Of a stretch of 49,110 nt of DNA, positions 9,576-30,758 are shown one piece after another. The stretch is taken from assembly GCA_937140905.1 (NCBI GenBank), contig CAKZQO010000321.1, positions 1 through 49,110 of the forward strand, read 5' to 3'. The notes under the pieces were generated by a model that was not told the DNA's origin, ran no database searches, and worked only from the letters and a program-made list of their open reading frames with translations. The stretch is from an uncultured Spirochaeta sp. Lineage in GTDB: Bacteria > Spirochaetota > Spirochaetia > DTKZ01. Each line of letters begins with the position of its first letter. Position 1 is the first letter of the stretch. Both the position numbers and the translations under genes were made by a program.

Positions 9576-9965
9576 ATGAAAAAGCGCACGATTCTTTGCA
9601 TAGATGATGAAGCCATTATCCTCCTAGCCTTGAAACAGGAACTCAAATTGCACTTCCGCGATCGATATACGATTGCCACCGCGCTGAACGTGGAACAGGC
9701 GAAACAGATACTGGAATCGTTACAGAAGGAAGGACGGACGGTAGAACTTATCATCTGTGATTGGCTAATGCCCGGTACGAAAGGAGACACGTTCCTGGCA
9801 GAACTGAGGGCCCAGAATCCCAAGAGAAAACTCCTGGTGATTACTGGCCATGCAGACCAGGATGCGATAGAAACTTTTCAATCGAAAGTGCAGGCCAGGA
9901 TCCTGTACAAGCCCTGGAAATCCGAGGATCTCATTACAACTGTCACCGAGCTCCTGGAAGAGTAA
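9576..9965 (+). CDS. Stand-alone response-regulator receiver domain
   Basis: A 129-residue CheY-like protein with no output domain. Seen: acidic pair D10-D11 (CIDDE), phospho-acceptor D62 (ICDWLMPG), T90 (VITGH) and K112 in YKPW. All positions needed for phosphorylation are present. The LMPGTKG and YKPW signatures resemble receivers linked to complex hybrid kinases or HD-GYP systems. No cognate kinase is adjacent; the next gene is nucleotidyltransferase-like, 46 nt downstream. The start is supported by AAGGAAG. Confidence 0.93.
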   Translation: MKKRTILCIDDEAIILLALKQELKLHFRDRYTIATALNVEQAKQILESLQKEGRTVELIICDWLMPGTKGDTFLAELRAQNPKRKLLVITGHADQDAIETFQSKVQARILYKPWKSEDLITTVTELLEE

Positions 9966-12243: not shown

Positions 12244-14136
12244 TTAAAAGAATAAAAACAGAACTGGTGGCACCGCTCCCAACAGGTTCGCATAGATATT
12301 GGGAACTAACTGGAGAGCTCCAGCTATGAGGAGAAGTCCAGAACGAAGAATCCCTAGCTCTTTTCGCCAGTACTTCATAAGACCTGCGGAAAGAAAGACC
12401 GTAGCGGCACCTGTTCGAACCACTACCGAGAGGATCTCGATTAGCCCTCCTCGAAGAAGGAGGGCTTGATCATACACGAACACGAAAGGAACGAAGAAAG
12501 CTGCAAAGCAGAGCCGCATGGCCAGAAGGGCTGTTTTGAACCAATCGGATCCTGCCATCCCAGCCGCGATATACACAGCCCCACAGATGGGAGGAGTAAT
12601 GGCAGAAAGGATGGCAAAGTAGAACACGAAGAGGTGAGCCACTAGGGGAGGAAGACCGAAGTTCACCAACACAGGTCCGCCAATCACTACCGCCATGATG
12701 TACGCAGCGGTGGTAGGTACCTGCATCCCCAGTACGATACTGGTAAGAGCTATCAGTACCAGGGACAAGAAAAGCTTCCCCTGACTTACCGAAACAATGA
12801 AGGAACTAATCTTGACCCCCAATCCAGTTAGTGCGATTACGGCAATGATGATCTGAGCGCAGGCTGAAATGGAGGCGATGACTGCAGCTTGCCTCGCTCC
12901 ATCCAGAACAGCCTTCCTCATTTGCTGTAGAGCTTCTCGAAGGCTCCACCGCAGATCCTCGGTAAAAAAGGCGAACACCAATGTAACGAGACTCGCCCAA
13001 AAGGCTGCGTACTGGGGTGTGTATCCCGCCACCATCCAAGCAATAAGCACTCCAAAGGGGATTAAAAAGAACACACTGGACCGAACCGTTTCTCCCAACT
13101 GGGGCAATTCTCTCGCCGGAAGGCCTACATACCCTTTTCGCTTAGCGTAGAAATGGATTCCCACACCCACGGAAAGGAAGTAGAACAAAGCGGGTAATAA
13201 GGAACGAATGGCTACTTGAAGATAGGGAGTCTCGGTAAGTTCCGCTAACACGAAAGCGCCGGCACCCATGATGGGAGGCATGATCTGTCCTCCCGTACTG
13301 GCAGCTGCTTCTACTGCAGCAGCTACTTCGGGAGAGTACTTGAGACGTTTCATCATGGGTATGGTGAAAGCGCCGGTGGTAGCCACGTTGGCGCTGGCGC
13401 TCCCCGATATGGAACCAAACAACGCACTGGCTACTGTAGCTACTTTAGCGGGCCCTCCCGAGTATTTCCCGGCTAGCCAGATAGAAAGCCGCATGAATCC
13501 CGTGCCCCCACCGGTAGCGAACATAAAGGCCCCAAAAAAGACGAAAATGGCAATCACATCCGTACTGACCCCTACCAACAGTCCCCAGATCCCTCCGGTT
13601 GTGAGAAACAGTTGACCAGCAAGAGTGGGTAAATCGTATTGGGGATGGCCGAAAGTTCCCGGAATCAAATGTCCAAAAAGGGCATAGAGGAGAAAGAGGA
13701 AAGCTAAAACCGGTAGAGCAGGCTGAATTTCTCTACGGGTCGCCTCGATCACTAGGAGCAGGAACAGGAAAGCCAGCGCCGTTTGTCCCCAACCCGTAGG
13801 CACTCCATACTGTTCCGATATTCCTTCGGCAGATAGGAACACGTAGAAAGAGATTCCAACTCCAGATAAAAAGAGGAAGAGATCCCAGTAAAGAGACCTT
13901 TTCAGTGAAAAAGCCGTGCGTATAGTAACTGGAGCCCTTTGTTCTGTGTCTTTTGTGGATGCGCTATTCAGAACCTTTTTCAGCATCCCTCCCCCGAAGA
14001 TGATCCAGAACATGAACAGGAGGTGTATTGCCCTCGCTTGGAGAGCGGGAAGGAACGCATACACGGGAAGGAGAAGTTGAAAGAGAGCAAATAGGAGGGA
14101 CCCTATCAGGATCCCTACTTGTAGGATTCTTGCCAT
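12244..14136 (-). CDS. TRAP-TAXI transporter fused permease (DctQM-type)
   Basis: A 630-residue multi-spanning membrane protein. A small-subunit-like N-terminal part (about 1-120) is fused to a DctM-type large permease (about 120-540; GTGFMRLSIWLAGKYSGGPA and SASANVATTGAF are typical). A C-terminal block of further transmembrane helices follows, as in many TAXI fused permeases. It uses an ion gradient to import an organic acid or amino acid delivered by the binding protein, whose gene lies 39 nt upstream in the same operon. No clear SD precedes the ATG. A weak TTGATT-16-TATGAG lies 6 nt before it, so it could also have its own leaderless transcript. Confidence 0.93.
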   Translation of the reverse strand: MARILQVGILIGSLLFALFQLLLPVYAFLPALQARAIHLLFMFWIIFGGGMLKKVLNSASTKDTEQRAPVTIRTAFSLKRSLYWDLFLFLSGVGISFYVFLSAEGISEQYGVPTGWGQTALAFLFLLLVIEATRREIQPALPVLAFLFLLYALFGHLIPGTFGHPQYDLPTLAGQLFLTTGGIWGLLVGVSTDVIAIFVFFGAFMFATGGGTGFMRLSIWLAGKYSGGPAKVATVASALFGSISGSASANVATTGAFTIPMMKRLKYSPEVAAAVEAAASTGGQIMPPIMGAGAFVLAELTETPYLQVAIRSLLPALFYFLSVGVGIHFYAKRKGYVGLPARELPQLGETVRSSVFFLIPFGVLIAWMVAGYTPQYAAFWASLVTLVFAFFTEDLRWSLREALQQMRKAVLDGARQAAVIASISACAQIIIAVIALTGLGVKISSFIVSVSQGKLFLSLVLIALTSIVLGMQVPTTAAYIMAVVIGGPVLVNFGLPPLVAHLFVFYFAILSAITPPICGAVYIAAGMAGSDWFKTALLAMRLCFAAFFVPFVFVYDQALLLRGGLIEILSVVVRTGAATVFLSAGLMKYWRKELGILRSGLLLIAGALQLVPNIYANLLGAVPPVLFLFF

Positions 14137-14175
14137 AAAAGACTCATAAGCTCACAGTCGGAAAAATCAACACGC

Positions 14176-15117
14176 CTACTGTAGTGCTGATGCCACCTTG
14201 AATCCGATTTCCCGGTAGTAGCGAAGGGCTCCCGGATGTAACTTCGCTTCCATGAAGTTCACATCCTCCATCGTAATGAGTTTCATGGCAGGATGTACCG
14301 TTTCCCATTTGGATCGACTTTCCCAGAAGGTTTTTGTAAGCCTATACACTAATTCTTCCGGCAGGTTCTCCACAGCGTACAGAGCCACAGGTTCACTGAT
14401 GGTCTTCACTGGCGCATCTATGCCGGAATACATCCCCGCTGGAATCACCGCTCGAGCGTACTTTGTTTTAACCCGTTCATAGTCCTGATCGGAAAGTTCC
14501 AGCAAGCGGATAGGAACCGTGGCAGCGATCTCCTGGATCATCGATGCAGGAGGAGTGCTGGATGTGGCAAATCCCACTGCCCGCTTGTTTCGCACCGCTT
14601 GGACTCCCTCACTCAAGTCTACCCGCACGAGATCCACTTTATCGAGAATTCCCATAGCACCGAGAACATCCCGGGTAATTCGTTCACCCGCAGACCCTGC
14701 TCCGCCCGGCACGAACTTCTTGCCTGCTAAATCAGCCAGACTTTGTACCCCACTATCTTGTCGTACGACCCAGTGCATTACCAGACCCGGAATTGGCCAA
14801 AGGGAACGGATCCTTCCATATCCCCCTTCCTTGAACTGCTCTCCCCCTCCCAGGGCGGCCTTCACGAGTGAGGGCGGAGAGGTAAAGAGGTAATCGTTTC
14901 GGGTACGGGAGAGTTTCACGTTTTCCACAGAGCCCGCGCTCGTTTCCACTGTGATCTGAACTCCAGAAACTCCTTCCATCAACGCTTTTGCGATTCCCAC
15001 GGCAAAGGCGTAGTAGGTTGAAGTTTCCCGTGCCGACTTCAGAGCAATCTGGGTTTGCGCCGTCGCGAGACTAATGACAGAGAAAATGGTGATAAGTACC
15101 AAGAACGCTCGTTTCAT
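14176..15117 (-). CDS. TRAP-TAXI solute-binding protein
   Basis: 313 residues from the ATG at 15117, chosen because it exposes a standard signal peptide (MKRAFLVLITIFSVISLATA); the frame opens at 15171 but would bury it. The mature part shows TAXI-family features: LKSARETSTYYAFAVGIAKAL, TAGSVENVKL, and KFVPGGAGSAGERITRDVL. It captures the substrate in the periplasm for the fused permease encoded next. The AAAGG before the ATG is only 1-2 nt away. A six-codon ORF at 15134-15114 with a better SD overlaps the start (ATGA) and may couple translation. Confidence 0.9.
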   Translation of the reverse strand: MKRAFLVLITIFSVISLATAQTQIALKSARETSTYYAFAVGIAKALMEGVSGVQITVETSAGSVENVKLSRTRNDYLFTSPPSLVKAALGGGEQFKEGGYGRIRSLWPIPGLVMHWVVRQDSGVQSLADLAGKKFVPGGAGSAGERITRDVLGAMGILDKVDLVRVDLSEGVQAVRNKRAVGFATSSTPPASMIQEIAATVPIRLLELSDQDYERVKTKYARAVIPAGMYSGIDAPVKTISEPVALYAVENLPEELVYRLTKTFWESRSKWETVHPAMKLITMEDVNFMEAKLHPGALRYYREIGFKVASALQ

Positions 15118-15230
15118 ACCTTTGAAGTTTCCATGTTTCTTTTCCTCTGTCAAGGGGAATTGAACGACCAATGAGTCGGCCCAATAGGTCTACTCGGGAA
15201 TTAAGTCCATAGACGTTCAGCGTGCTTCTT

Positions 15231-18140: not shown

Positions 18141-20186
18141 TCAATCTGAGGAAAGCCCTCCTACCCATTCTTCCTCCACACACACGAGGCACCGTTCCAA
18201 TTCTGAATCCTGCGTATCTGCCAATTCTCCTAAAGTAAGGGTGATATAGGTGTTCAGGTCCAAGGGTCCCTGCACAAAGGTACTGGCGTAGAAACCCAGC
18301 CGCTTCTCCCGCTTAACACCCATCCGGATCAACGTTTTCGCACCTTCCCGTACAAGGGTGACTTTTCCTAGAGCGTCCTCTTCCCCTAGAACCGACCATA
18401 CCCCTAACATGAGGGGACGTTTGGGATCGCTCACGTCACCGGAGAACTCTCCCCGTAAGAGTTCTTCTCGACTCTTCTTTAGATAGGGAACGAAATCAAG
18501 GTGCTCAGCTAGCTTCCGATCGGTAGCCATGAATCGTCCCGTTGCGGGATCCATCGTAAAGATCACTGTTCGGTCTGTGGCTTGTCCATAACTTTTGAAG
18601 AGGATCCCCCCATACTCTGCTAGAGGCGCATGGTTCTCTAGATACTCCTGATCATCTCTCACCCGAACCGCCATATCGAACAACCAGTCTCGGAACTCGG
18701 TATGCTCCGTCCTGAGAGAGTCCACATATTCCCGTAACCCTTCTGCTACCATGTATCCTTGTTGGAAAGAGAGGAAGGTTCGAAAAATCTCTCTGATGTT
18801 GTGGTACCGGGAAAAATGAAGGATCAAATCCCAGAGAAACACCTCCATTTTTCGAAGCCGCCAGATAAAAGAACCCAGAACACTTCGGCTCGGAACCGCA
18901 TTCCGATCCAGTTGCTCCGTAAGCTCCGTGAACTCCCGGTACCGGAGTTCGTATTCTTGCAGGAAGGACGAATCCCCTTTGGGCTTCTTGGGCAAACGGA
19001 TCCTCCATCGGGTACCTTTCCCCACCCGGCTTTCCACCCGAATGTTCTCCTTCCCGAAAACGGCAAAAATCTGCCGGGTCCCAATTCCTTGCCCCTGAGA
19101 AGGCAATTTTGGGGAAACCGTCCTATGACCTGCATGAAATCCGAAAGATTGTTTTGATTCCCCAAACGGCATCCTTGGCTCTGATGGAAAAGTTCGGGTC
19201 TTCGTAGTCCGACCCACAAACATAGGGAGTCCGTCTTCTCTCAAAGTCAACCGTTCCGGTTCGATCCCTACTCCATTGTCCATAAACGTAAGGAGGATAT
19301 GATCCTTCTCTTCCTTCAATTCAATGGTAATTCTTCCTCTCCTGCCTGCCTCCTTGATAGCATCCAATGCATTGGAAGCTAAGTTGATCAACGCCCGCCC
19401 AAAATCCACATAAGGCCCATAAGCTTCGGGAATCCGCCCCTTCACTATGAGATGCACGTCACAGGGTATGGGAGACAACTCGATGAAGGGAAGAATCCGC
19501 TCGAGGAGCAGGGTTTTAATGTTAACCTCATGATACCGCTCTACAGAATCCCGGTAGGCGTTCAGCATGTTGATGAGGGCGGTGGTTTCCCGATTGATGT
19601 CTTCGATGATTTTGTGACAATTATCTACCGATAAACGGTCTACCATGTCGGAGAGAAGTCGAATCGTTTTCCGCGCGTCATGCCGGGTTTTCCCCAACTC
19701 TTCCGCAAAGGAAGAGGTCGACTCTTCGACTCCTTCCGCATCCTTCAGGTCAGAAGCTCTACAGACCATATGGATGAACACCAGACCCCGATACACGATT
19801 CGATCCAATACTGTAAAGCCTTTTTTCGCAAAAAAGAGAACCGCCTCCTGCTGTTTTTCCCAAATGTAGAGGTATAGGAGAGCATCTGAGCGAACTTCGG
19901 AGGCTAGCCGGCGAATGAAAGCCGACCCTATGCCTTTCCCCCGCCCGAAGGGGCTTGTTACCTGCTTGTATAGGTGAAATCGGGTACGTTCTGGATTGGA
20001 GTACACCAATAAGTATCCAAGGATTTCCCCCTCCTCCTCCCAAACGTAGCTGTGCTCATAGTCCTTTTCCAGTGCTTCATCCTTTATATAGGGGGATGGG
20101 ATGATGAAGGTGTCGATGTTCAACGAATGATTACGCTGGATCCGTTCTTCCAGAGCTGGGGTTAGCTTCTGAATGAAATCTATCAT
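18141..20186 (-). CDS. GNAT acetyltransferase-histidine kinase fusion
   Basis: 681 residues. Residues about 1-145 form a GNAT fold, with the acetyl-CoA loop FGRGKGIGSAFI (R82-G87) and a VLFFAKKGF strand. Next comes a dimerisation helix with TRHDARKTI (H169, of the RHD-type H box), then a GHKL ATPase with N-box NLASNALDAI (268-277), DNGVGI (303-308) and GQGIGTRQIF (365-374). The ATPase has a 35-residue Ser/Pro/His-rich insert before the second Gly box. Residues 410-681 match nothing I recognise. There are no transmembrane helices, so it is probably cytosolic. A small molecule or acetyl-CoA may gate kinase activity. No adjacent response regulator. The start ATG has no SD. Confidence 0.85.
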   Translation of the reverse strand: MIDFIQKLTPALEERIQRNHSLNIDTFIIPSPYIKDEALEKDYEHSYVWEEEGEILGYLLVYSNPERTRFHLYKQVTSPFGRGKGIGSAFIRRLASEVRSDALLYLYIWEKQQEAVLFFAKKGFTVLDRIVYRGLVFIHMVCRASDLKDAEGVEESTSSFAEELGKTRHDARKTIRLLSDMVDRLSVDNCHKIIEDINRETTALINMLNAYRDSVERYHEVNIKTLLLERILPFIELSPIPCDVHLIVKGRIPEAYGPYVDFGRALINLASNALDAIKEAGRRGRITIELKEEKDHILLTFMDNGVGIEPERLTLREDGLPMFVGRTTKTRTFPSEPRMPFGESKQSFGFHAGHRTVSPKLPSQGQGIGTRQIFAVFGKENIRVESRVGKGTRWRIRLPKKPKGDSSFLQEYELRYREFTELTEQLDRNAVPSRSVLGSFIWRLRKMEVFLWDLILHFSRYHNIREIFRTFLSFQQGYMVAEGLREYVDSLRTEHTEFRDWLFDMAVRVRDDQEYLENHAPLAEYGGILFKSYGQATDRTVIFTMDPATGRFMATDRKLAEHLDFVPYLKKSREELLRGEFSGDVSDPKRPLMLGVWSVLGEEDALGKVTLVREGAKTLIRMGVKREKRLGFYASTFVQGPLDLNTYITLTLGELADTQDSELERCLVCVEEEWVGGLSSD

Positions 20187-20217: not shown

Positions 20218-20646
20218 TTAAAAAAGAAGGTGAACCTTCAAGCCAGGAAACCTTAAAAAATCTCTGTCCCCGGTAACTATTGTAGCATCAAATTCCAGCG
20301 CAAGAGCTGCTAGATGAGCATCGCTTACCAGATTGCCGGCTGTTCCCGACAGAAGAAGCAAGTGCCGGAGTATGCTTCGGTGAGATTTCCCTGGATTCAG
20401 TAAAAAAGTGGTAGGTTGATTAAGTAAGGCATCTAGCCATGAGATAGCTTGTTCAACCGTTAAAGGAGTATTAAACAATCGTCTCGAGGTGGTAAGACGG
20501 ATAAACCCTAAGTACACGGCCCACGGCAATCCTACTTCCTTTTCTTCTTTATTTAGAATCTCCTCTAACCACGCACTTGCCTTTCTATGATGCACGGAAG
20601 ATCGATCCACTGCGTATAGGAGGATGTTCAAGTCGGGAATAATCAT
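20218..20646 (-). CDS. vapC: PIN-domain toxin, VapC family
   Basis: 142 residues of PIN-type ribonuclease. Seen: N-terminal strand with D5 (IIPDLNILLY), a central helix with PWAVYLGFIRLTTS, the conserved VSDAHLAALALE Asp, and TGDRDFLRFPGL near the end. This pattern fits the mycobacterial-type VapC subgroup. VapC toxins cut tRNA or rRNA when released from the antitoxin. It overlaps the antitoxin stop by 4 nt (ATGA), as in most VapBC operons. Confidence 0.9.
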   Translation of the reverse strand: MIIPDLNILLYAVDRSSVHHRKASAWLEEILNKEEKEVGLPWAVYLGFIRLTTSRRLFNTPLTVEQAISWLDALLNQPTTFLLNPGKSHRSILRHLLLLSGTAGNLVSDAHLAALALEFDATIVTGDRDFLRFPGLKVHLLF

Positions 20647-20906
20647 TTTTGTAAATCCAATTTTTCAGATACTGCCTCTTCCTCTAAGTGGTCTATCATT
20701 TCCCAAGCTCTTTCATACCTGTAGGAGGTAGGCCCTAACTCATAGGATATGCATTTCCATCTTTTTCTATTCTTCCGGCTAGAGGTTTTTTTAAGAGCCT
20801 CCGATAGAAGAGAATTGATTAGTTCCTTCAGTGTTTTCTTTTCTTGAACAGACTTGAACCGTAATTCTTGCATTAAATCATCACTTATATCGATCGTTGT
20901 ACGCAT
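20643..20906 (-). CDS. vapB: VapB-type antitoxin, ribbon-helix-helix
   Basis: 87 residues. MRTTIDISDDLMQELRFKS followed by a second helix (KTLKELINSLLSEAL) is a MetJ/Arc-type DNA-binding fold. The basic C-terminal half (KKTSSRKNRKRW onward) would wrap the PIN toxin. It precedes and overlaps vapC, so it is made first and represses the shared promoter. Apparently leaderless: TATTAT ends 6 nt before the ATG. Confidence 0.88.
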   Translation of the reverse strand: MRTTIDISDDLMQELRFKSVQEKKTLKELINSLLSEALKKTSSRKNRKRWKCISYELGPTSYRYERAWEMIDHLEEEAVSEKLDLQK

Positions 20907-21000: not shown

Positions 21001-21010
21001 AATATCAAAT

Positions 21011-21111
21011 AGCGGGAGCTCGGACAAACCGGGCTGAGAGGTTCCCTTGCAGTTTGCTGTGGGAATGACCGATGGACCTGATCCGGATAATGCCGGCGTA
21101 GGAAGCAAACT
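21011..21111 (+). ncRNA. TPP riboswitch (THI element)
   Basis: The conserved core is plain: GGGCTGAGAGG at 21030-21040, a long P3 arm closed by TTCCC/GGGAA, then ACCTGATCCGGATAATGCCG and GGCGTAGGAAGC. This aptamer binds thiamine pyrophosphate. It precedes an intrinsic terminator and thiE/thiD/tenA, so high TPP should stop transcription before the genes. The P3 loop AGTTTGCT (21051-21058) is exactly complementary to AGCAAACT (21104-21111) at the 3' edge, a possible tertiary or switching helix. Confidence 0.95.
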
Positions 21112-21123
21112 AGTTGAATTGAA

Positions 21124-21149
21124 GCCGCCCTAGCCGGGCGGCTTTTTTT
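21124..21149 (+). terminator. Intrinsic terminator of the TPP riboswitch
   Basis: GCCGCCC (21124-21130), 5-nt loop, GGGCGGC (21136-21142) and seven T residues. It lies 13 nt after the aptamer and 75 nt before the first gene, as expected for transcriptional attenuation. Confidence 0.93.
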
Positions 21150-21223
21150 GTGACATCCTTGCTCTCCTCCAGTCCGTCCTTCGCCCGCAATTACTCAATT
21201 AACCTACTATTGCGGAGGGATGT

Positions 21224-22303
21224 ATGGAAATAGGGAAAATCGGAAAGATCGATCTATCGGCCTTTGAGCAATTTTTACTACACCGATTAGGCAAACCGGA
21301 TGATCGGTTGATCGTCCCCCCCCTAACAGGTGTGGATGCAGCGGTGATCAAGGTGAACGCAGAACAGGTGCTGATCCTGGCAGAGGATCCTATTTTCCCC
21401 ATGCCCGGAAAAGGGTACGAAGATTTTGGGTACTACACGGTTCATATTGGAGCTTCCGATGTGGCGGTGATGGGAGTAAAGCCGGAGTTCATCTCGTACA
21501 CCCTACTGATGCCCCCTCAAACCACGGACGCAGAGTTCAGGCAAATCATAGATTCCATCCACACAACCGCACTCGATCTTGGGATGAGTATCGTAGGCGG
21601 GCATACCGGATACTACCCCGCGGTTACCGTTCCTACCATTGGCGGGATCACGGTGTTTTCCTTTGCCAGGGAAGGGGAGTACGTGACCCCGAAGGGAGCT
21701 AAAGTAGGGGATGCTGTGATCGTAACCAAAGGCCCGGCCGTAGAAACAGTGGGGATTCTGGCAACTATATATGAAGAAGAGCTTAACCGAACGTTTACCG
21801 AATCCTTCATCGAACAGGCAAAAGGGTACATGAAAAAGATGTCCGTCGTTACCGACGCCCTTACTGCCATGGAAGCGGGAGGAGTGCATGCCATGCATGA
21901 CGCTACCGAAGGAGGGGTGCTTGGAGGATTGTTCGAAGTGGCCAACGCTTCCAACGTGGGGATGTGGATCGATGAATCCAATTTCATCTGGACAGAGGAG
22001 ATCGAAGGAATCTGTCGATACTTCCAGATCGATCCTCTCCTCTCCATCGCCGAAGGAACCCTCATCATTTCCTGTGAGTCTAGTGCAGCTCCCCACATTC
22101 TCAACTCCCTAAAGGAAAAGGGCATTCCCGCTAGTATCGTGGGGGAAGTGGTACCTCCACACAAAGGGAAAAAGATCAAACGCCGAACAGGCATCGTTGA
22201 AGACCTTCGGATCCCTGAACAGGATCCCTTCTGGCCCTGTTTCTTTAGAGGGATCGGCGCAAAGGGAGAAAAAGCACAAGGAGAAAAGGAGGGCAAGTCA
22301 TGA
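21224..22303 (+). CDS. PurM/HypE-like AIR-synthase-related protein, possible thiamine-phosphate kinase analogue
   Basis: 359 residues in the PurM superfamily (AIR synthase, HypE, ThiL, SelD). Seen: GVDAAVI near residue 37, ILAEDPIF, the GASDVAVMGVKP helix, SIVGGHTGY, and HAMHDATEGGVLGGLFEVA, typical of the ATP-binding dimer interface. It lacks the C-terminal Cys of true HypE. It is the first gene of the TPP-riboswitch operon, where no classical thiL or thiM occurs, so making TPP from TMP is a reasonable guess but unproven. GGAGGG precedes the ATG. It ends 4 nt into thiE. Confidence 0.75.
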   Translation: MEIGKIGKIDLSAFEQFLLHRLGKPDDRLIVPPLTGVDAAVIKVNAEQVLILAEDPIFPMPGKGYEDFGYYTVHIGASDVAVMGVKPEFISYTLLMPPQTTDAEFRQIIDSIHTTALDLGMSIVGGHTGYYPAVTVPTIGGITVFSFAREGEYVTPKGAKVGDAVIVTKGPAVETVGILATIYEEELNRTFTESFIEQAKGYMKKMSVVTDALTAMEAGGVHAMHDATEGGVLGGLFEVANASNVGMWIDESNFIWTEEIEGICRYFQIDPLLSIAEGTLIISCESSAAPHILNSLKEKGIPASIVGEVVPPHKGKKIKRRTGIVEDLRIPEQDPFWPCFFRGIGAKGEKAQGEKEGKS

Positions 22304-22941
22304 AAAAAGTGCCGGATCGTTTGTCCTATCCTCTGCTCTACCTGGTGACTGATCGGGACCTGTCCCTAGGTAGACCTCTTCTGGACGTGATCACTCAGGC
22401 AGTGGAAGGAGGGGTCAATGTCGTACAGATACGGGATAAGAATCTTGGCACCCGGGCATTTATCGAAGAAGCATTAACGATTCAAGCGTTTCTTAAGACC
22501 AAAGGGATCCCCCTACTCATCAATGACCGGGTGGATGTGGCTCTAGCGATCGAGGCGGATGGAGCGCATATCGGACAGGGTGATATGCCTTACCCCCTAG
22601 CCCGAAAACTTTTAGGCCCTCAAGCGATCATTGGCCTTTCCGTGGATACCTACGATGAGCTCCTCCAAGCAGAAGACTTCGATGTGGATTATCTAGGGAT
22701 CGGTCCGGTATTCCCCACCTCCACAAAAACAGACCACAAAGGATTTTTCTGGGGTATAGAGGGGTTGCGATGGGCAAGGGAGCATTCTCGACATCGCCTC
22801 ATTGCCATTGGGGGAATCAACGAAACGAACGCTTCCGATGTGGCAAAGACAGGGGTGGATGGAATCGCAGTCGTTTCCGCTATTGTATCAGCCTCCAATC
22901 CCAAAGAAGTTGCGATTCGGTTGCGCCGAGTCTTTTCCTGA
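22300..22941 (+). CDS. thiE: Thiamine-phosphate synthase
   Basis: 213 residues, a TIM-barrel enzyme joining hydroxymethylpyrimidine diphosphate and thiazole phosphate to give thiamine phosphate. Seen: YLVTDRDL, GGVNVVQIRDKN, LINDRVDVALAIEADGAHIG, DYLGIGPVFPTSTKTD and IAIGGINETNASDVAKTGVDGIAVVSAI, all family hallmarks. It overlaps the preceding gene by 4 nt and is followed by thiD after 15 nt. Confidence 0.96.
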   Translation: MKKVPDRLSYPLLYLVTDRDLSLGRPLLDVITQAVEGGVNVVQIRDKNLGTRAFIEEALTIQAFLKTKGIPLLINDRVDVALAIEADGAHIGQGDMPYPLARKLLGPQAIIGLSVDTYDELLQAEDFDVDYLGIGPVFPTSTKTDHKGFFWGIEGLRWAREHSRHRLIAIGGINETNASDVAKTGVDGIAVVSAIVSASNPKEVAIRLRRVFS

Positions 22942-22956
22942 TACGGAGGCGCAGGT

Positions 22957-23802
22957 ATGAAAGGAGATAGTAAACGTTACAAACGCCTATTGACTATTGC
23001 GGGCTCGGACAGTGGAGGAGGAGCGGGTATCCAGGCAGACCTGAAGACCTTCTCTGCCCTTGGATGCTTCGGCATGTCTGTGATCACCGCTCTTACGGCC
23101 CAGAACACCCATTCTGTCACGGGAATCCATCCCGTACCGCCTGAATTCATCCGCCTTCAGATCGACACGGTGATGGAAGATATAGGGGTGGATGCTGTAA
23201 AGGTGGGAATGCTCCATTCGGCAGAGGTGATTCGCACCGTAGCAAACTCCCTACAATCTTACCCCATTCCGTATATAGTAGTAGATCCAGTGATGGTGGC
23301 AAAAGGTGGGGCCAAACTGTTGCAGGATGAAGCGGTAGAGGCTCTCCGTACCTACCTTCTGCCCTTAGCAACGGTGATCACCCCTAACCTTCCGGAGGCC
23401 CGTGTCCTCCTCGGGCTCGACACGAATCCATCGAATCGGGAAAAAGATTCAGATCTTGCCGTCCTCGAGCATCTAGGCCGCCAGCTTGCTTCCTTAGGCC
23501 CAAAGGCTGTGTTGGTGAAGGGGGGGCATCTCCAGGGTTCTGAAAGTTCTGATGTACTGTACCTTGCCGTAGAGGATCGGTTCGTCCACTTCCCCTCTCG
23601 CCGGATCCCTACCCAGAACACCCATGGAACGGGTTGTACCCTCTCTTCGGCCATCGCTGCGTATCTGGCGCATGGTTTACCCTTGGAGCAAGCCGTTGGA
23701 TCGGCAAAGGAGTACCTAACCCAAGCTCTTATAAAAGGAGCTACTTATCGGTTGGGTAACGGCCACGGCCCCGTCCATCATTTCCATGCCTTTTGGAAGT
23801 AG
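22957..23802 (+). CDS. thiD: Hydroxymethylpyrimidine/phosphomethylpyrimidine kinase
   Basis: 281 residues of ribokinase-fold enzyme phosphorylating HMP and HMP-P. Seen: [49 protein letters not shown] and the anion-hole/catalytic segment [20 protein letters not shown] precedes the ATG. It sits between thiE and tenA, forming a salvage set that supplies the pyrimidine half. Confidence 0.96.
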
Positions 23803-23810
23803 GAGGCGAC

Positions 23811-24485
23811 ATGAGTCACCCGCAATTCCTTCCAAGAAACGCCCCGGACTTCTGGAACCATATACAGGACCTATATACTGCCATTATCCATCACCCTTTT
23901 AACCAGGAACTTGCTGAAGGAACCCTCGCTCGGGATCGGTTCCTCTACTACATTCAGCAAGACGCCCTCTACCTTATCGAGTATGGGAAAGCCCTTTCCC
24001 TTTTAGCCGCTCGTTCGGATTCTCCTAAAAGAATGCGGGACTTTATACGGTTCGCTTCGGGCATTTTCACCGTAGAGGAGGCAATGCACCAGATCTACTT
24101 CACCGAGTATGGCGTGAAGGATCCCATCCAGATCAAATCTCCCGCGTGTTTTGCCTATACACACTTCCTACTAGCCACAGTTTCTTTGCGTTCTTACGAA
24201 GAGGGGGTAGCGTCCATCCTGCCCTGCTTCTGGGTGTACCGAGAGGTTGGCCTTTTTATATATCGCGCAGCCGTAAAACCCAATCCGTTCGAGTGCTGGA
24301 TCGAGACCTACGCGGGGAAAGATTTCGGAGAGGCAACCGAGCGGGCCATCGAAATCCTCGAGGAAGCAGTAGGATCCACATCCGAATTAACCCGGAGTCG
24401 CATGCTTGATGCCTTCGTTACCTCTACCCGGTTGGAATGGCTATTCTGGGATTCTGCCTATAGGATGGAAAAATGGAAACCGTAA
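23811..24485 (+). CDS. tenA: Aminopyrimidine aminohydrolase / thiaminase II
   Basis: 224 residues from the ATG at 23811, which has TAGGAGG just upstream; an earlier frame start at 23793 is less likely. TenA hydrolyses 4-amino-5-aminomethyl-2-methylpyrimidine to HMP for ThiD. Seen: FLYYIQQDALYL with the substrate Asp (D51), ILPCFWVYREVG with the catalytic Cys (C139), and TRLEWLFWDSA with E209. It is therefore the Cys-type (TenA_C), not the Cys-less TenA_E type. The next gene begins inside its last codons. Confidence 0.93.
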   Translation: MSHPQFLPRNAPDFWNHIQDLYTAIIHHPFNQELAEGTLARDRFLYYIQQDALYLIEYGKALSLLAARSDSPKRMRDFIRFASGIFTVEEAMHQIYFTEYGVKDPIQIKSPACFAYTHFLLATVSLRSYEEGVASILPCFWVYREVGLFIYRAAVKPNPFECWIETYAGKDFGEATERAIEILEEAVGSTSELTRSRMLDAFVTSTRLEWLFWDSAYRMEKWKP

Positions 24486-25438
24486 AAAAAGCAGAGTCCA
24501 ATCGGCTCATCATTCTCGACTTCGCGGGGACATTGAGTATACAGACCGTTCTCTTTGGCCGAAAAGACCGATTGGCGCGAGCATTACGAACATCCGGGCT
24601 TGCCCAACTAGGCTTTAGAGATCCTACTATGTTCTGGGAAGAACTAGTATTCCCCACCTGGGAGGAAGGGGGGCTTACTTCCAAGGGATACGCAGAGGTC
24701 CTTGCTCAGAGAATTGGGGAGCTTCTTTCGCGAGATTCCCTTCCTTTTATGGGAAGGCTTGGAAAAAAGTTCGTGCACCGAAGTCGGTATCCCTTCCTCA
24801 TCGATATCACCTACAGATTCGTTCAGCTATACTTCCAGAACTCCCGAATCGATCCTGGTTGGAAAGCCTTGTTAAAGGGCCCCTACTTTAAAGAAAGGAT
24901 GAGGAGCGATGAGCCTTTGGATACCTTTTTAATCGCTACCGATCACTACGCAGAATGCACGGCTTTCCTCCGCTGTAACTTGCGGCGGTGGGGAATCAGG
25001 AGTACGCCGATACGGAGAGGGATTTATCCTGAGCAGGCCTGTCTATCGCAAAACACTAGTGATAGCCCTTCTCTATCCCCAAAACCCACCCCAATCGTTT
25101 TCATTGCCAACTCAGCCGACTTAGGATGCTGGAAGAAGGATCCTGCGTTTTGGGAACAGGTGAACAAGAAACTGCCCCTCAAAACTTTCCAGCGTATCCT
25201 TCTGATAGACGATTTTGGACACAACGAGCATCGAGGGGATCCCTACTCGGATCGCCAGCGAATAGAACAGCGGAGGGATTCCATCCTCCGCTGCCTTGCT
25301 TCTTTTAGTCCTGCGAAAGTAGAGGTATTCCCTTTCTTCCTTGAGTCTCCGGTGAGCGAAACGCCCCCTGCCGACATCTACCTGGAATACCGAAGGTTAT
25401 TGGACGAGGCCCTCCTGTTCTTTCGGAACCATTGGTGA
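24473..25438 (+). CDS. HAD-superfamily-like protein in the thiamine operon
   Basis: 321 residues, family not recognised. The N-terminus reads IILDFAGTLS (13-22), a HAD motif I whose second Asp is Ala, as in phosphonoacetaldehyde hydrolases. FLIATD (152-157) may be motif II and ILLIDD (242-247) motif IV. Being in the TPP-controlled operon, its start overlapping tenA by 13 nt, it probably acts on a thiamine-pathway phosphate. Plant TH2 is a TenA-HAD fusion with thiamine-monophosphate phosphatase activity, a suggestive parallel. AGGATGG serves as SD. Its last 42 nt overlap the convergent membrane-protein gene. Confidence 0.65.
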   Translation: METVKKAESNRLIILDFAGTLSIQTVLFGRKDRLARALRTSGLAQLGFRDPTMFWEELVFPTWEEGGLTSKGYAEVLAQRIGELLSRDSLPFMGRLGKKFVHRSRYPFLIDITYRFVQLYFQNSRIDPGWKALLKGPYFKERMRSDEPLDTFLIATDHYAECTAFLRCNLRRWGIRSTPIRRGIYPEQACLSQNTSDSPSLSPKPTPIVFIANSADLGCWKKDPAFWEQVNKKLPLKTFQRILLIDDFGHNEHRGDPYSDRQRIEQRRDSILRCLASFSPAKVEVFPFFLESPVSETPPADIYLEYRRLLDEALLFFRNHW

Positions 25439-27994
25439 TTCCGTAGACTCCGTCCCTGATTCCGTACCTTTCTCTGTCGGCCCCTCCATAGGTTCCTGTC
25501 GAACTAAGCTCTGGAACATCCACCAGGCCAGCAGGTAGAGGAGGATCGCTCCTAATAAAACCAGCCTGTAACCGAAGGAAACCGAAGCTAACCGCGCCAG
25601 AACCGAACCTGTAACCGATAGACACCCGTTCACTCCCCACGCCCACGGGATCAGGTTGGGACGCTTCTGGGAAACATAGGAGAGTCCTGTGGGGAAGGGC
25701 ATTCCCAGGAAAAAGGCCGAAGGAGCGATGAACAGGATCGAAAGGAGGATCTTCACGAAAAGCGGTGCCCCTAGAAGAGCATCCAGAATCGGAGACAAGA
25801 GTAAGATATAGAAAAGGATGGAAAGGCTAATTCCTGCCACGGCAATAGTAAGGAGTCGGTTACGAGGAAGAGTTAACCGACCGCTTGTCAAGCTACCTAC
25901 ACCAGAAAGAACCAGCATGGCCGTGATTACAACAGAGGTAGAAAAGATGGGGTCCTCTAAGAAGAAGGAAAGCCGCTGGATAAGGAATATTTCCACCAGC
26001 ATGTAAGCGATCCCCAAGCAGGAAAAGTACACTAGGACCTGAAGGGTTCCCTTCCGGTTCTGGAACAGTTCTTCCCAACGGCCAATGGCTGGTACTGCGA
26101 TGATCAACGCCCCAAACAGAATGGACACGAGGAAGGTGGCTACCAGAAGGATATACCCCCATTCCTCTGATAGATCCTTCAGGTTCTTTACAACGAGGGG
26201 AACGGAAGCGGGTTTCACGTAGGCGGTATAGTACGGCCGGTCATCTGTCGCGGGATCGATATTGAACACGTACCGTTTGTACAACTCCCTTTCCTTCCCT
26301 TGGGTAAGCCAGGAAACCGTATACTGATACAGCTCTTCAGGAAGAAGATCGGTAGAGGCAGTGCCTCCCTTCATCTGCTTGTCGTACCCCTCGAGGATCT
26401 CATCGAAAGTTCGTTTAGGATCCGACTTGCCCGGGTAGAAACAGGGGGTGAAAGACATCTTTTTACAGAATTCGAGAAGGGTTTCGATCTCCTTGGGTTC
26501 AAAAGGAGTCTTCTTCACCAACACTGTGGCGGTAGACAGAAGAAGATCGAAAACAAAGATCTGTTTCTCTGGTTGGGCAGCCCCGTCCATCTTCAAAGCG
26601 GCGACAATGGTTGAAAGCAATTTGGGCACGTTCCGGGGAGGGTTCAACCGGTTCCATACTGTCACTGCCAAAACCCCGGTGGGCTCCAAACAGGACAGGT
26701 AGGATCGGATCCCTTCCGCCGTGTAGATGAAGTTCTCCGTGATGGGATACCCTCCCGCAGAAGAAAGTCCAATGGAATCGATCAGACTGATCTCTACCAG
26801 GTCGAATCGCTCCTTCGTACTACCCGTAAAGGCCCGAGGTTCCGTCTGTACGACTCGGACTCGAGGATCGTACAGGAGATTGTCGGTAAACTCCCGGAAG
26901 TAGGGGTCATGCTTCAGCATTCGTAGGAGGTATGGGTTATTCTCGACCACAGTGACCTGTTTTGCACCATGATGGAGGGCGCTGAAAGCGCCGATCCCTC
27001 CCCCTAACCGGAGAAGTAGCACCTTCGGTTGTTTCAATAGAAGGTAGGGGGCTGCCATAGGAAGGTAGTTCATGTAGGCTTCTTCCCCTGGTTTCAGCTT
27101 GCGCATGATTCCAATGGGCCCATCCCCGTCGATGTACAGTCCTAGGAAGGCGTTCTGTGGCATACGGGCAATGTTAGAGCTGGCATTGTCGCTCAATCCC
27201 GGAGCGAAATGAAAGAAGGAACTGCTAAAGGCGTCGAACTCGCCCAACGGCCCGTAAGCGTGGTATACCTGTTTGGAATCGGGGAACTGCCGGGCGTAAC
27301 TGATAGGCTTAAAATCGGATACTCGAATCTCTCCGGCTACGAGAAGGACCACTACCGAAAGAAGGGAGGTCAATCCCACGGTAGAGACCTTCCAGGGATT
27401 CAGAATCGGGCTACGCAATTCCCATCGGTATTCGAGAGTACATAGGTAGGTGGCAACTGCTGCTAGGATCACAAGGGGTCCTACCAAGCGATCCGGAGGA
27501 AGGACATACATCAAACCCAGAATGAAGAACCCTCCGATTCCTGAACCGAGCATGTTCCAGAAGTAAAGTTGATGGATCTTGTCCCGGAAAGCGATGAAGG
27601 ACACTCCAATGAATACCGCGCCGATGAAGAAGGGGACCGAATACACCACATAGTAGGAAGCAATCCAAAGGATCTGCTTCGAATCCATCGTAATGAGAAG
27701 AGGATTGAAGGGTACCCATTGAGCCACGATATGAGCGGCAGCCATCGCCGGGGTTAGCAACAAAGCGGATACTAGCAACCACGCATCCGCGTTCTTCCGG
27801 ATGCGCTCCTCAAGGAAGGTCAGGAGAGTGCCTGCAAGGCCATACCCCAACAAAGCAATGCTAATCACCATGGCGCCGAAATTGGACCAGCTTCCTACCG
27901 CAAAGGTCCGCATTACTGACAATTCGTACGCAATGAGGGTCACAGACAGCACGAACAGTGCCGCCAACCGAAAGGAGGAGAGTTTGATACGCAT
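25397..27994 (-). CDS. Membrane-embedded spermidine-synthase-like protein
   Basis: 865 residues from the ATG at 27994, one nt after the upstream stop (TAGGATG); a longer frame start at 28084 overlaps that gene and is rejected. About seven N-terminal transmembrane helices are followed by a soluble Rossmann methyltransferase-like domain (about 330-560; LLLRLGGGIGAFSALHHGAK, TVVENNP, TENFIYTAEGIRSYL), then more helices. This SpeE-like domain normally transfers aminopropyl or methyl groups. No polyamine decarboxylase gene is nearby, so the substrate is unknown. It is co-transcribed with the isoaspartate methyltransferase. Its tail carries repeated Thr/Glu/Gly (about 840-858). Confidence 0.82.
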   Translation of the reverse strand: MRIKLSSFRLAALFVLSVTLIAYELSVMRTFAVGSWSNFGAMVISIALLGYGLAGTLLTFLEERIRKNADAWLLVSALLLTPAMAAAHIVAQWVPFNPLLITMDSKQILWIASYYVVYSVPFFIGAVFIGVSFIAFRDKIHQLYFWNMLGSGIGGFFILGLMYVLPPDRLVGPLVILAAVATYLCTLEYRWELRSPILNPWKVSTVGLTSLLSVVVLLVAGEIRVSDFKPISYARQFPDSKQVYHAYGPLGEFDAFSSSFFHFAPGLSDNASSNIARMPQNAFLGLYIDGDGPIGIMRKLKPGEEAYMNYLPMAAPYLLLKQPKVLLLRLGGGIGAFSALHHGAKQVTVVENNPYLLRMLKHDPYFREFTDNLLYDPRVRVVQTEPRAFTGSTKERFDLVEISLIDSIGLSSAGGYPITENFIYTAEGIRSYLSCLEPTGVLAVTVWNRLNPPRNVPKLLSTIVAALKMDGAAQPEKQIFVFDLLLSTATVLVKKTPFEPKEIETLLEFCKKMSFTPCFYPGKSDPKRTFDEILEGYDKQMKGGTASTDLLPEELYQYTVSWLTQGKERELYKRYVFNIDPATDDRPYYTAYVKPASVPLVVKNLKDLSEEWGYILLVATFLVSILFGALIIAVPAIGRWEELFQNRKGTLQVLVYFSCLGIAYMLVEIFLIQRLSFFLEDPIFSTSVVITAMLVLSGVGSLTSGRLTLPRNRLLTIAVAGISLSILFYILLLSPILDALLGAPLFVKILLSILFIAPSAFFLGMPFPTGLSYVSQKRPNLIPWAWGVNGCLSVTGSVLARLASVSFGYRLVLLGAILLYLLAWWMFQSLVRQEPMEGPTEKGTESGTESTESPMVPKEQEGLVQ

Positions 27995-27995
27995 C

Positions 27996-29162
27996 CTACT
28001 TCTGTTCCTTTTTTTCTGAGTCTTTTTTCTGTAAGTCTTTTTCGATGGAATGCACTTCCCCTTTACCGGCAGTAAAGGGAACAAAAATCACTTTCCGTCG
28101 GCCATGGAAGATATCTTCCCGTTCTAGGGTTACCGAGCCATCCGGCGCGACGTTCTTCGTCACCTTCATGACCGTCTGGCCAGAGGGTGGCCCGACCGGG
28201 ATCACCATGATTCCTCCCGGTGTTAACTGCTGGAGAAGGGGTGGAGGAATGTGATCGATTCCACAGGTCACGATGATCCGATCGAAGGGAGCGTACTCCT
28301 CCCAACCATAGTACCCATCGGCATTCTTCCGCTTGATGTTCTTGTACTGGGGATAGTCTGCCTCCAACTTTTTATAGATTTCGTCTGTTTCCTGGGTGAG
28401 TTCTGGAACGATCTCGATTGTGAACACGAAATTGGAGAGTTCCGCTAACACCGATGCTTGGTACCCGGAGCCTGTACCGATCTCCAATACTCGATGATGG
28501 GGTTCCACCCGGAGGTTCTGGGTCATTCGGGACACCATGTGAGGACCCGAGATGGTCTGCCCATACCCGATGGGCATAGCGGCATCCGCGTATGCGTTCT
28601 TCCGGTTGTAAGGGCGACAGAACTCCTCTCGGGGAGCCATCAGGAAAGCCTGTAGCACCCGTTCCTCCACGATATCCTGCCGTTGCAGAATTTCCCGGGA
28701 TCGCTCCCATTTCGCTTTCAAAAAAGGTTCCGTCTGTTTAGTGTTCTTTAGCATCCATTGGAGGTACCGCTCATACGAATCGGTAGGAGGTAGTTCTTTC
28801 CTCTGGGTGATATCGAAAGCCGGGACAAGGGTATTCTTTCCTACCTTTCCCAGATTCCCTGTCATTCCCATCGAAGGAGAAGCGGCTTGTCCCACGTTGG
28901 GAGAAACACTTCCGCCTTGTTCCCCTCCCACCACGGAGGGAGATTGCAATACCCTTCGATAGGGCGTACCGAGGTACACTCCCACTGCCACTGCAAGAAA
29001 AAGGATCGATAACGCGAAGGAGATCCTTAACGATCGAAATGATGAGGTGGGAGGAACAGGCTGATGAGAGGGTGTTTTCCCCCTGCCTTGTTCCTGGAAC
29101 CCGCAAACCCCACAGCCTTCTTCGGGTACGAATTCGAACCCGCACTCTGGACAACTAGTCAT
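27996..29162 (-). CDS. pcm: Zinc-ribbon membrane-anchored protein-L-isoaspartate O-methyltransferase
   Basis: 388 residues, well above the roughly 210 of classical PCMT because of the N-terminus. There is a C4 zinc ribbon (CPEC...CGVC at C4, C7, C17, C20), a single transmembrane helix (about 46-64), a linker, then the SAM-dependent PCMT domain (about 150-360). That domain has MPIGYGQTISGPHMVSRM, VLEIGTGSGYQASVLAEL and IIVTCGIDHIPPPLLQQL. It repairs isoaspartyl residues in damaged proteins by carboxyl methylation. The membrane anchor leaves it unclear which side of the membrane it acts on. It heads a two-gene operon. Confidence 0.9.
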   Translation of the reverse strand: MTSCPECGFEFVPEEGCGVCGFQEQGRGKTPSHQPVPPTSSFRSLRISFALSILFLAVAVGVYLGTPYRRVLQSPSVVGGEQGGSVSPNVGQAASPSMGMTGNLGKVGKNTLVPAFDITQRKELPPTDSYERYLQWMLKNTKQTEPFLKAKWERSREILQRQDIVEERVLQAFLMAPREEFCRPYNRKNAYADAAMPIGYGQTISGPHMVSRMTQNLRVEPHHRVLEIGTGSGYQASVLAELSNFVFTIEIVPELTQETDEIYKKLEADYPQYKNIKRKNADGYYGWEEYAPFDRIIVTCGIDHIPPPLLQQLTPGGIMVIPVGPPSGQTVMKVTKNVAPDGSVTLEREDIFHGRRKVIFVPFTAGKGEVHSIEKDLQKKDSEKKEQK

Positions 29163-29230: not shown

Positions 29231-29482
29231 AAGTTCCCAGGATCATCACCCCTTGGCTGGATTACGGCACGGCCCGGATACCTTCGATTACACGGTCCAA
29301 GCAAGTGGTACTCTCACCAGTGCACCCATGGAGAACTTCTCGAGATCCTTTCATGGTTCCAAAGGATGTTCGTCTCACGCGTCCGCGAAATCTACGTTTT
29401 CTTCAATAACGATTTCGCGGCCTACGCGACACAAAACGCGGAGGAACTAAAAAAACTCCTTCCCCTCATTAGGGAGCCTTAG
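29231..29482 (+). pseudogene. Remnant of a DUF72 (YecE-type) gene, C-terminal fragment
   Basis: An 83-codon frame with no plausible start: it opens just after a TGA at 29228-29230 and ends at TAG 29480-29482. It encodes YLRLHGPSKWYSH, then HGELLEILSWFQR, then IYVFFNNDFAAYATQNAEEL and a short tail. These are the closing motifs of DUF72 proteins (RLHG; FNND-like; A..NA..L). The missing N-terminal two-thirds is not found upstream. It fills most of the 306-bp gap before the LuxR gene, overlapping that gene's 3' end by 14 nt. Confidence 0.7.
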
Positions 29483-30758
29483 CCCTTAATAGAGGTTGCA
29501 TACTCTTGCTTGGATAGGACTCGAACGGCAGGTTCGAGTCTTTGATCATCTTCAAAAGCTCCACCCTGTTCCGGACGCCTAGTTTGTTGTAGATATGAGT
29601 TACGTGGGATTTCACGGTGCGCTCCGTGATAGAGAGATGATCAGCGATACATTTGTTTGTGGCCCCGGAAAGAACCTGCTGGATGATTTCCCATTCCCTC
29701 CAGGTAAGATGAAATCGATGTAAGAATTGCTTCAGTCCCCGGACTTCCTGCCCGATGAGAAGGACTCCCAACAATTCCCCCATCCAGTCCCGCACAAGGG
29801 AAAGGGTAAGTTCCAGCCCTTCCAGTTCATTCGTTCGCGGAACTTGCACCATATAGGAAAGCTTTTCCAGTTTACCTTCCAATAATCGTCGGAATCCCTC
29901 TCGAAGGAGCGTATCGTCCCCTATCACGGTAGTTATATCTTTCCCAATCACTTCCTCCATCGATTTCTGTAGAAGCGCTTGGGCACGCTTATTGATCATC
30001 ATGATGCGGAGTCCGGGATCGAGAAGAAGAACCGCCACGTTCATGTTTTCCAGAATATCCTTGCACACCGTCTTATGCGTGATGGAGAGAAACCGATACT
30101 TCACGATAGCGTACCAGGTTCCCGCGAGGAAAATGACGAAGTAGAAGGGGCTGATCACGGGTATTCCCACCCGATACGCGATAAGGAGATCATTCGCCGA
30201 GGCCCCTACAAAGAACAAGAGCATGGAATAGAAGATGATCCGGGCCTGTCTTCGGACTCGTTCCGAATCCGCCCGTTTCCACCATCGATACAGGAGAATC
30301 AAAGAGAGAATAACCGAACCATGGGAATAGAGGATCCAATAATTAACCCAGAGGGAGTGGAGAGCCGGATAGAAGACCCAAGTACTTCCCGCTCTCTCGA
30401 TTCGTTCGAAGACAAAGAAGGAAGTCCAGTTCCGGTAGTGTACGGGTAGAGAAAGGAGGTAGTGCAGGGGAATCAACCACCTGTGATGCCTATGGCGAGT
30501 GAGCATAAGGACAAAAGGTAAAACATTAGATACAAAAAAGATCCCGAACGTGGCGCCCACACGGAATCGAGGCCATAACGTCTCAAGGGTGTCCGCGGAA
30601 AAAACGAAAACCGTGAAGAAATTCCAGAATGCCTCGCTCAAAGATAGGAGAAAAAACATTCGATGAGTTCGATCTCGCGGATCCAGCACGAGAACGTAGA
30701 TTCCAAAGGCGAGGGAAATATGGAACATGCTTAGGGAAATGGCAGCATAGATATCCAT
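29469..30758 (-). CDS. Membrane-bound LuxR-family regulator with 7TM and PAS domains
   Basis: 429 residues. Seven hydrophobic segments fill residues about 5-225, like the N-terminal sensor of 7TM histidine kinases. A PAS domain follows (about 235-345; NMNVAVLLLDPGLRIMMINK). The C-terminus (about 355-410) is a LuxR helix-turn-helix (LTWREWEIIQQVLSGATNKC, LSITERTVKSHVTHIYNKLG). So it is a membrane-tethered one-component regulator, with no kinase domain. It is divergent from glpK, with an inverted repeat between. A TATAAT promoter gives a leader of about 19 nt, with only a weak GAG as SD. Confidence 0.88.
   Translation of the reverse strand: MDIYAAISLSMFHISLAFGIYVLVLDPRDRTHRMFFLLSLSEAFWNFFTVFVFSADTLETLWPRFRVGATFGIFFVSNVLPFVLMLTRHRHHRWLIPLHYLLSLPVHYRNWTSFFVFERIERAGSTWVFYPALHSLWVNYWILYSHGSVILSLILLYRWWKRADSERVRRQARIIFYSMLLFFVGASANDLLIAYRVGIPVISPFYFVIFLAGTWYAIVKYRFLSITHKTVCKDILENMNVAVLLLDPGLRIMMINKRAQALLQKSMEEVIGKDITTVIGDDTLLREGFRRLLEGKLEKLSYMVQVPRTNELEGLELTLSLVRDWMGELLGVLLIGQEVRGLKQFLHRFHLTWREWEIIQQVLSGATNKCIADHLSITERTVKSHVTHIYNKLGVRNRVELLKMIKDSNLPFESYPSKSMQPLLRAKAP

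Follow-up and report, generated by a model that had tools for sequence, protein, structure and literature searches.

The gene at 18141-20186 on the minus strand of the window (the window being the whole stretch of 49,110 nucleotides that was analysed, from an uncultured Spirochaeta sp.) encodes a GNAT domain and a histidine kinase in one protein. This GNAT-kinase fusion is a new kinase family. By motif and fold, its product is an orphan cytosolic histidine kinase, which would autophosphorylate and hand on the phosphoryl group. Both the input and the tail domain appear to be new for histidine kinases.

The preliminary description of this DNA had proposed a single 681-residue frame joining the two domains. 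This is confirmed: 18141-20186 (-) is one open frame with an ATG start and 681 residues, and both domains score above their Pfam cut-offs. There is no transmembrane input domain before the kinase; the protein begins with the GNAT domain. The parts of the gene are:

18141..20186, minus strand: whole gene, GNAT - DHp - GHKL ATPase - C-terminal module (single ATG frame, 681 aa)
19752..20186, minus strand: GNAT domain, residues 1-145 (PF00583, E 1.7e-10)
19521..19706, minus strand: DHp, residues 161-222, with H169 at 19680-19682 (RHD and K173 invariance)
18987..19520, minus strand: GHKL ATPase (CA), residues 223-400 (PF02518, Foldseek, motif invariance)
19095..19199, minus strand: Ser/Pro/His-rich ATP-lid expansion, residues 330-364 (length comparison)
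18582..18986, minus strand: C-terminal helical part, residues 401-535 (modelled helices)
18144..18581, minus strand: C-terminal alpha/beta part, residues 536-681 (conservation)

A short, variable linker (residues 146-160, mean pairwise identity 13%) separates the GNAT domain from the DHp. The AlphaFold2 model of the whole protein, made with the 35-member alignment, has a mean pLDDT of 75. In NCBIfam, only the kinase-core or GNAT portions of known families are matched, with scores far below the cut-offs.

Kinase core, ATP lid and C-terminal module

The GHKL ATPase was correctly recognised in the preliminary description. HATPase_c (PF02518) matches residues 262-401 with an E-value of 8.1e-11, over its curated cut-off, and the same model is matched in 35/35 members. 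All boxes are present: the N box (N268/N272), G1 (D303-N-G-x-G307), the F box (F323..K329) and G2 (G365-x-G-x-G369). Residues N268, N272, D303, G305, G307, K329, G365, G367 and G369 are invariant in the 35 aligned members, and the first half of the ATPase has a mean pairwise identity of 50%.

The RHD-type H box claimed at H169 is there too, and reads K166-T-R-H-D-A-R-K173. R168, H169, D170 and K173 are invariant in all 35 members. No domain of the protein is more conserved than the DHp, which has a mean pairwise identity of 68%. It is modelled as two long helices (160-183 and 190-215) at low confidence (pLDDT ~50). No known DHp family (HisKA, HisKA_2, HisKA_3, SPOB_a, etc.) was matched at E 1 in the window protein or at E 0.01 in the 35 members. 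The residue at H+4 is a Lys. Phosphatase-competent kinases use Asn, Thr or Gln at this position, so the output of the kinase may be unusual.

In fold, the kinase core resembles HK853, YycG/WalK, ZraS, KinB and CckA (Foldseek, E 1.9e-10), and its sequence profile matches KinB (E 6.8e-14), ZraS and HK853. Since the motifs are complete and invariant, an active kinase is predicted with good confidence. The best solved relative is KinB (PDB 3d36), which like the NtrB/ZraS-type cores has the same N, G1, F and G2 boxes, including a TTK-type F box. KinB and ZraS have membrane inputs and a HisKA DHp with HE, and they end after the ATPase. The window protein, in contrast, has an RHDxRK DHp, a GNAT domain at its N-terminus and a module of ~280 residues after the ATPase. 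The Arg-His-Asp phosphoacceptor is shared with the RHD-type DHp proteins, which comprise Spo0B, DcuS/CitA and related proteins; unlike these, the window protein has no SPOB_a match, and Lys rather than Asn at H+4.

Between F-box K329 and G365 of the second Gly box there is a Ser/Pro/His-rich insert of 35 residues. Its size and position had been described correctly, but it is not part of the conserved design. It is a genus-specific and fast-changing expansion of the ATP lid: the three congeners have 35, 38 and 72 residues here, against 2-6 in every other member, and dN/dS is 0.46-0.82 where computable. The insert is probably disordered, as its pLDDT in the AlphaFold2 model is ~32-38. That it forms a functional domain is ruled out, given that it is limited to the genus and changes fast.

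The C-terminus (~401-681, ~280 residues) had been left unassigned. Pfam indeed matches nothing there in the window protein, and no match recurs across the 35 members, yet few parts of the protein are better conserved. Modelled alone, it reaches a pLDDT of 88.4 and a pTM of 0.83, and consists of helices followed by an alpha/beta part. The about six helices of the first part mostly have a pLDDT of ~90, and contain the invariant residues W442, R445, N463, R465 and R469. An invariant S532-Y533 and Q535 precede the alpha/beta part, the core of which reads IFTxDPxTGxFxATDRKLAEHLDFxPYL...LLRGExxGD...GVW. Here D556-R-K-L-A-E-H562, D564, R578-G-E580, G583-D584 and W597 are invariant. Mean pairwise identity over residues 526-640 is 61%. 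The invariant D/R/K/E/H cluster suggests a ligand site or an active site.

Several assignments for the C-terminus were tried and rejected. Response_reg or Hpt, which would make this a hybrid kinase, was not found there by Pfam in any of the 35 members; more generally, reading it as a receiver, HPt, PAS or any other known domain was rejected for lack of a Pfam match. CHASE3 (0.01) and PSS (0.0004) each turned up in a single one of the 35 members, and were taken as chance. A weak PDB profile match to the transcriptional regulator 3kkd (E 0.037) found no support in the fold search. Foldseek against the PDB returned nothing significant (best E 0.5), and neither did the viral fold library (best E 0.14). 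A gelsolin/cofilin-like alpha/beta fold was dismissed, as the Foldseek hits to cofilin, villin and adseverin have E-values of 0.5 or more and TM scores of 0.35 or less.

Because there is no significant PDB or viral fold, and no convincing Pfam or PDB sequence match, the C-terminus looks like an undescribed conserved domain when compared with Pfam, the PDB and viral models. Its role may be that of a second sensor, or it may serve as output. Whatever its ligand, the module merits a family entry and a structure.

Recurrence and constraint

A search of 60 relatives found 13 other genomes with the same one-frame architecture, with an overall identity of 45-90% by alignment. In a sample of the class, 64 of 297 genomes and 24 of 112 genera carry the fusion, nearly always at full length and once per genome. 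One family has it in 22 of its 26 genomes. One further copy comes from a fragmented genome of the same phylum that does not belong to the class.

Scanning 84,980 bacterial and archaeal species, with one genome per species, yielded 38 loci, all labelled spirochaete, and Candidatus Marispirochaeta associata is among them. Since the scan relies on a short conserved peptide, it could have missed very distant relatives. Neither a plasmid search nor an anti-phage defence library gave a match for the protein.

The arrangement had been held to be rare, and this stands: no relatives were found outside the spirochaetes. There is also no description of a GNAT-histidine kinase fusion in the literature searched, most subscription journals lying outside it. 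Among the members the GNAT always accompanies the kinase, in fixed order and position. Close stand-alone relatives of the GNAT or of the C-terminus were absent from the 393 phylum genomes searched for each, with only weak matches for the GNAT.

The preliminary description had named a sequencing error joining two genes as a threat to its reading. This is ruled out, because dozens of genomes that were assembled separately carry the fusion in a single open frame: 13 further relatives, ~60 genomes of the class and, within one family, 22 of 26. There is also purifying selection across all domains. Nothing was found in favour of a sequencing or assembly artefact, or of a decayed fusion, and the chance of either is negligible.

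Conservation was measured over 35 aligned members, 34 of which reach the GNAT region. The dN/dS ratios were computed between three congeners, where synonymous sites are near saturation, so the values are rough: 0.05-0.06 for the whole gene, 0.012-0.028 for the GNAT, 0.007-0.022 for the DHp and 0.03-0.06 for the alpha/beta part. Within the genus, purifying selection on the GNAT domain, which has a mean pairwise identity of 59% among members, is very strong. The domain is as constrained there as the DHp, as would be the case if the two work as a unit.

Role of the GNAT domain

Acetyltransf_1 (PF00583) matches residues 35-124 (E 1.7e-10, over the curated cut-off), and in total three Pfam GNAT models score above cut-off in the window protein. 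An intact acetyl-CoA loop had been reported at residues 82-87. This loop is R82-G-K-G-I-G87, it agrees with the [Q/R]xxGx[G/A] CoA loop of the GNAT superfamily, and all 34 members reaching the region retain R82, G85, I86 and G87. The worry that the domain might lack the GNAT fold is answered as well: the AlphaFold2 model predicts a GNAT-like order of strands and helices, at moderate confidence, and the sequence matches solved GNATs.

The fold and the CoA loop are like those of RimI and Naa50, and the closest solved sequences are 3ld2 and 6yzz/6z00 (Naa50). Different from these, the spirochaete GNAT is always fused to a kinase, and it has an invariant Phe (F119, 34/34) at the position where the solved GNATs 3ld2, 3fb3 and 6yzz have the Tyr of YxxxGF. 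This Tyr is the general acid, a usual but not a strict requirement, and it is absent from all 34 members. The change hints, weakly, that the domain senses rather than catalyses. It is weighed lightly because Tyr is also missing from two of three further GNATs that could be read in this genome; the three have Tyr, His and Phe at this position, one each.

The reading we prefer, to which we give an even chance, is that of a family of soluble orphan sensor kinases of the Spirochaetia in which the GNAT domain is the input that tunes autophosphorylation. The preliminary description had likewise suggested signal input through this domain, which would tie phosphotransfer to acetyl-CoA or an acetylated substrate. 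An input domain is normally found N-terminal in a kinase, before a short linker and the DHp. Taking the GNAT for the input rests on its place before the short variable linker and the DHp, on its being inseparable from the kinase and on its conserved CoA loop; overall, including the putative acetyl-CoA binding and the coupling to the kinase, this could go either way.

In such a mechanism, acetyl-CoA, another acyl-CoA or an amine-bearing partner would bind at the intact pyrophosphate loop. Binding would shift the linker (146-160) and hence the DHp helices, so that the acetyl-CoA/CoA state would set the activity of the kinase. The core would autophosphorylate on H169, and the phosphoryl group would pass to a response regulator, of which the genome encodes many at other loci. 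A second binding site, for a ligand or for a partner, could be provided by the C-terminal module, where the charged motif is invariant. These proposals, including the direction of the coupling, are drawn from sequence and models. A narrower version is plausible to a lesser degree, in which the kinase reads the acetyl-CoA pool through a catalytically retired acetyltransferase fold, and the C-terminal fold is one not in the PDB.

The GNAT might instead be an active acetyltransferase, which acetylates the kinase, a response regulator or a third protein, leading to cross-control between phosphorylation and acetylation. The intact CoA loop and the clear Pfam GNAT match above cut-off agree with this, and W109, E110 and Q112, almost invariant among members, suggest a kept pocket. 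There is also a precedent in Pat and the orphan RprY of Porphyromonas gingivalis (PMC5706477). The invariant Phe in place of the usual general-acid Tyr speaks against catalysis, as does the lack of a conserved neighbouring substrate gene, and we regard an active enzyme as a minority possibility. Acetylation of the protein itself, for example on a lysine in the lid or the RHDxRK motif, is similarly tentative.

It is a good deal less probable that the protein works in an unconventional way, with the kinase core switching a C-terminal enzyme or binding module, or with the GHKL domain as an ATP switch without phosphotransfer to a receiver. Residues 526-640 do rival the GNAT in conservation and hold a dense cluster of invariant D/R/K/E/H residues, the module after the CA is neither a receiver nor an HPt by Pfam, and no dedicated response regulator is nearby. 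Distant regulators, however, are common for orphan kinases, and an invariant H169 within RHD in the most conserved domain, the DHp, is hard to explain without phosphorylation. The sensor kinase with a GNAT input remains our preferred reading.

GNATs linked to signalling proteins have been described before. In cAMP-PatA and AAPatA, which are allosteric, the GNAT is joined to a cAMP or amino-acid domain (PMC8007912). There the small-molecule domain controls the acetyltransferase, whereas the spirochaete GNAT occupies the position of a kinase input. In P. gingivalis, Pat is co-transcribed with RprY, an orphan response regulator, so that here too a GNAT is tied to a two-component protein (PMC5706477). 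Those are a separate acetyltransferase and response regulator, while the spirochaete protein is a fused kinase. No described case of a two-component kinase reading acetyl-CoA through a GNAT domain was found in the literature searched.

The status of acetyl-CoA and acetyl-phosphate strongly affects bacterial signalling. If the narrower version, with a catalytically retired GNAT fold, is true, this protein would be a direct sensor of central carbon status which feeds two-component signalling. Given that one conserved gene brings together the fold of an acetyl-CoA-binding enzyme, a histidine kinase and an unassigned tail, the fusion may link metabolism to signalling in spirochaetes in a manner not described before. 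Being conserved and single-copy, it is a ready protein for measuring such a link.

Genomic setting

No neighbour of the kinase gene is conserved across families. A response regulator in the same operon is common for such kinases but not required, and no conserved receiver gene lies beside the kinase in the 38 loci. The genome has 60 receiver-domain matches, which makes an unlinked partner plausible. A CBS-domain-like gene adjoins the kinase in four loci, and an ABC-type ATPase gene does so in six.

Within the window, the kinase gene converges on a RidA-family gene, and a PIN-domain (VapC-like) gene lies 31 bases upstream of it. This PIN gene (20218-20906, minus strand) has a 4-base overlap with a small gene that weakly matches VapB/ribbon-helix-helix. 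In congener L032 the kinase has a homologous PIN gene as its neighbour; in congener L031 no PIN gene was seen at that place.

A stand-alone receiver (PF00072) is found at 9576-9965 on the plus strand, beside a nucleotidyltransferase-like gene, an order kept in one congener. It is a possible candidate partner for the orphan kinase. At 29469-30758 (minus strand) there is a HisKA_7TM region with PAS and a LuxR-type HTH, without a kinase domain; its product is apparently a membrane receptor wired straight to DNA binding.

The stretch 21004-24485 (plus strand) is an ordinary thiamine operon, with a TPP riboswitch (RF00059) followed by AIR-synthase-like, thiamine phosphate synthase, phosphomethylpyrimidine kinase and TenA genes. 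An 895-residue frame without Pfam match (25397-28084, minus strand) is conserved in congener L032. Finally, at 12244-15171 (minus strand), a DctM-type TRAP transporter gene adjoins the gene for an NMT1-like (TAXI-type) solute-binding protein.
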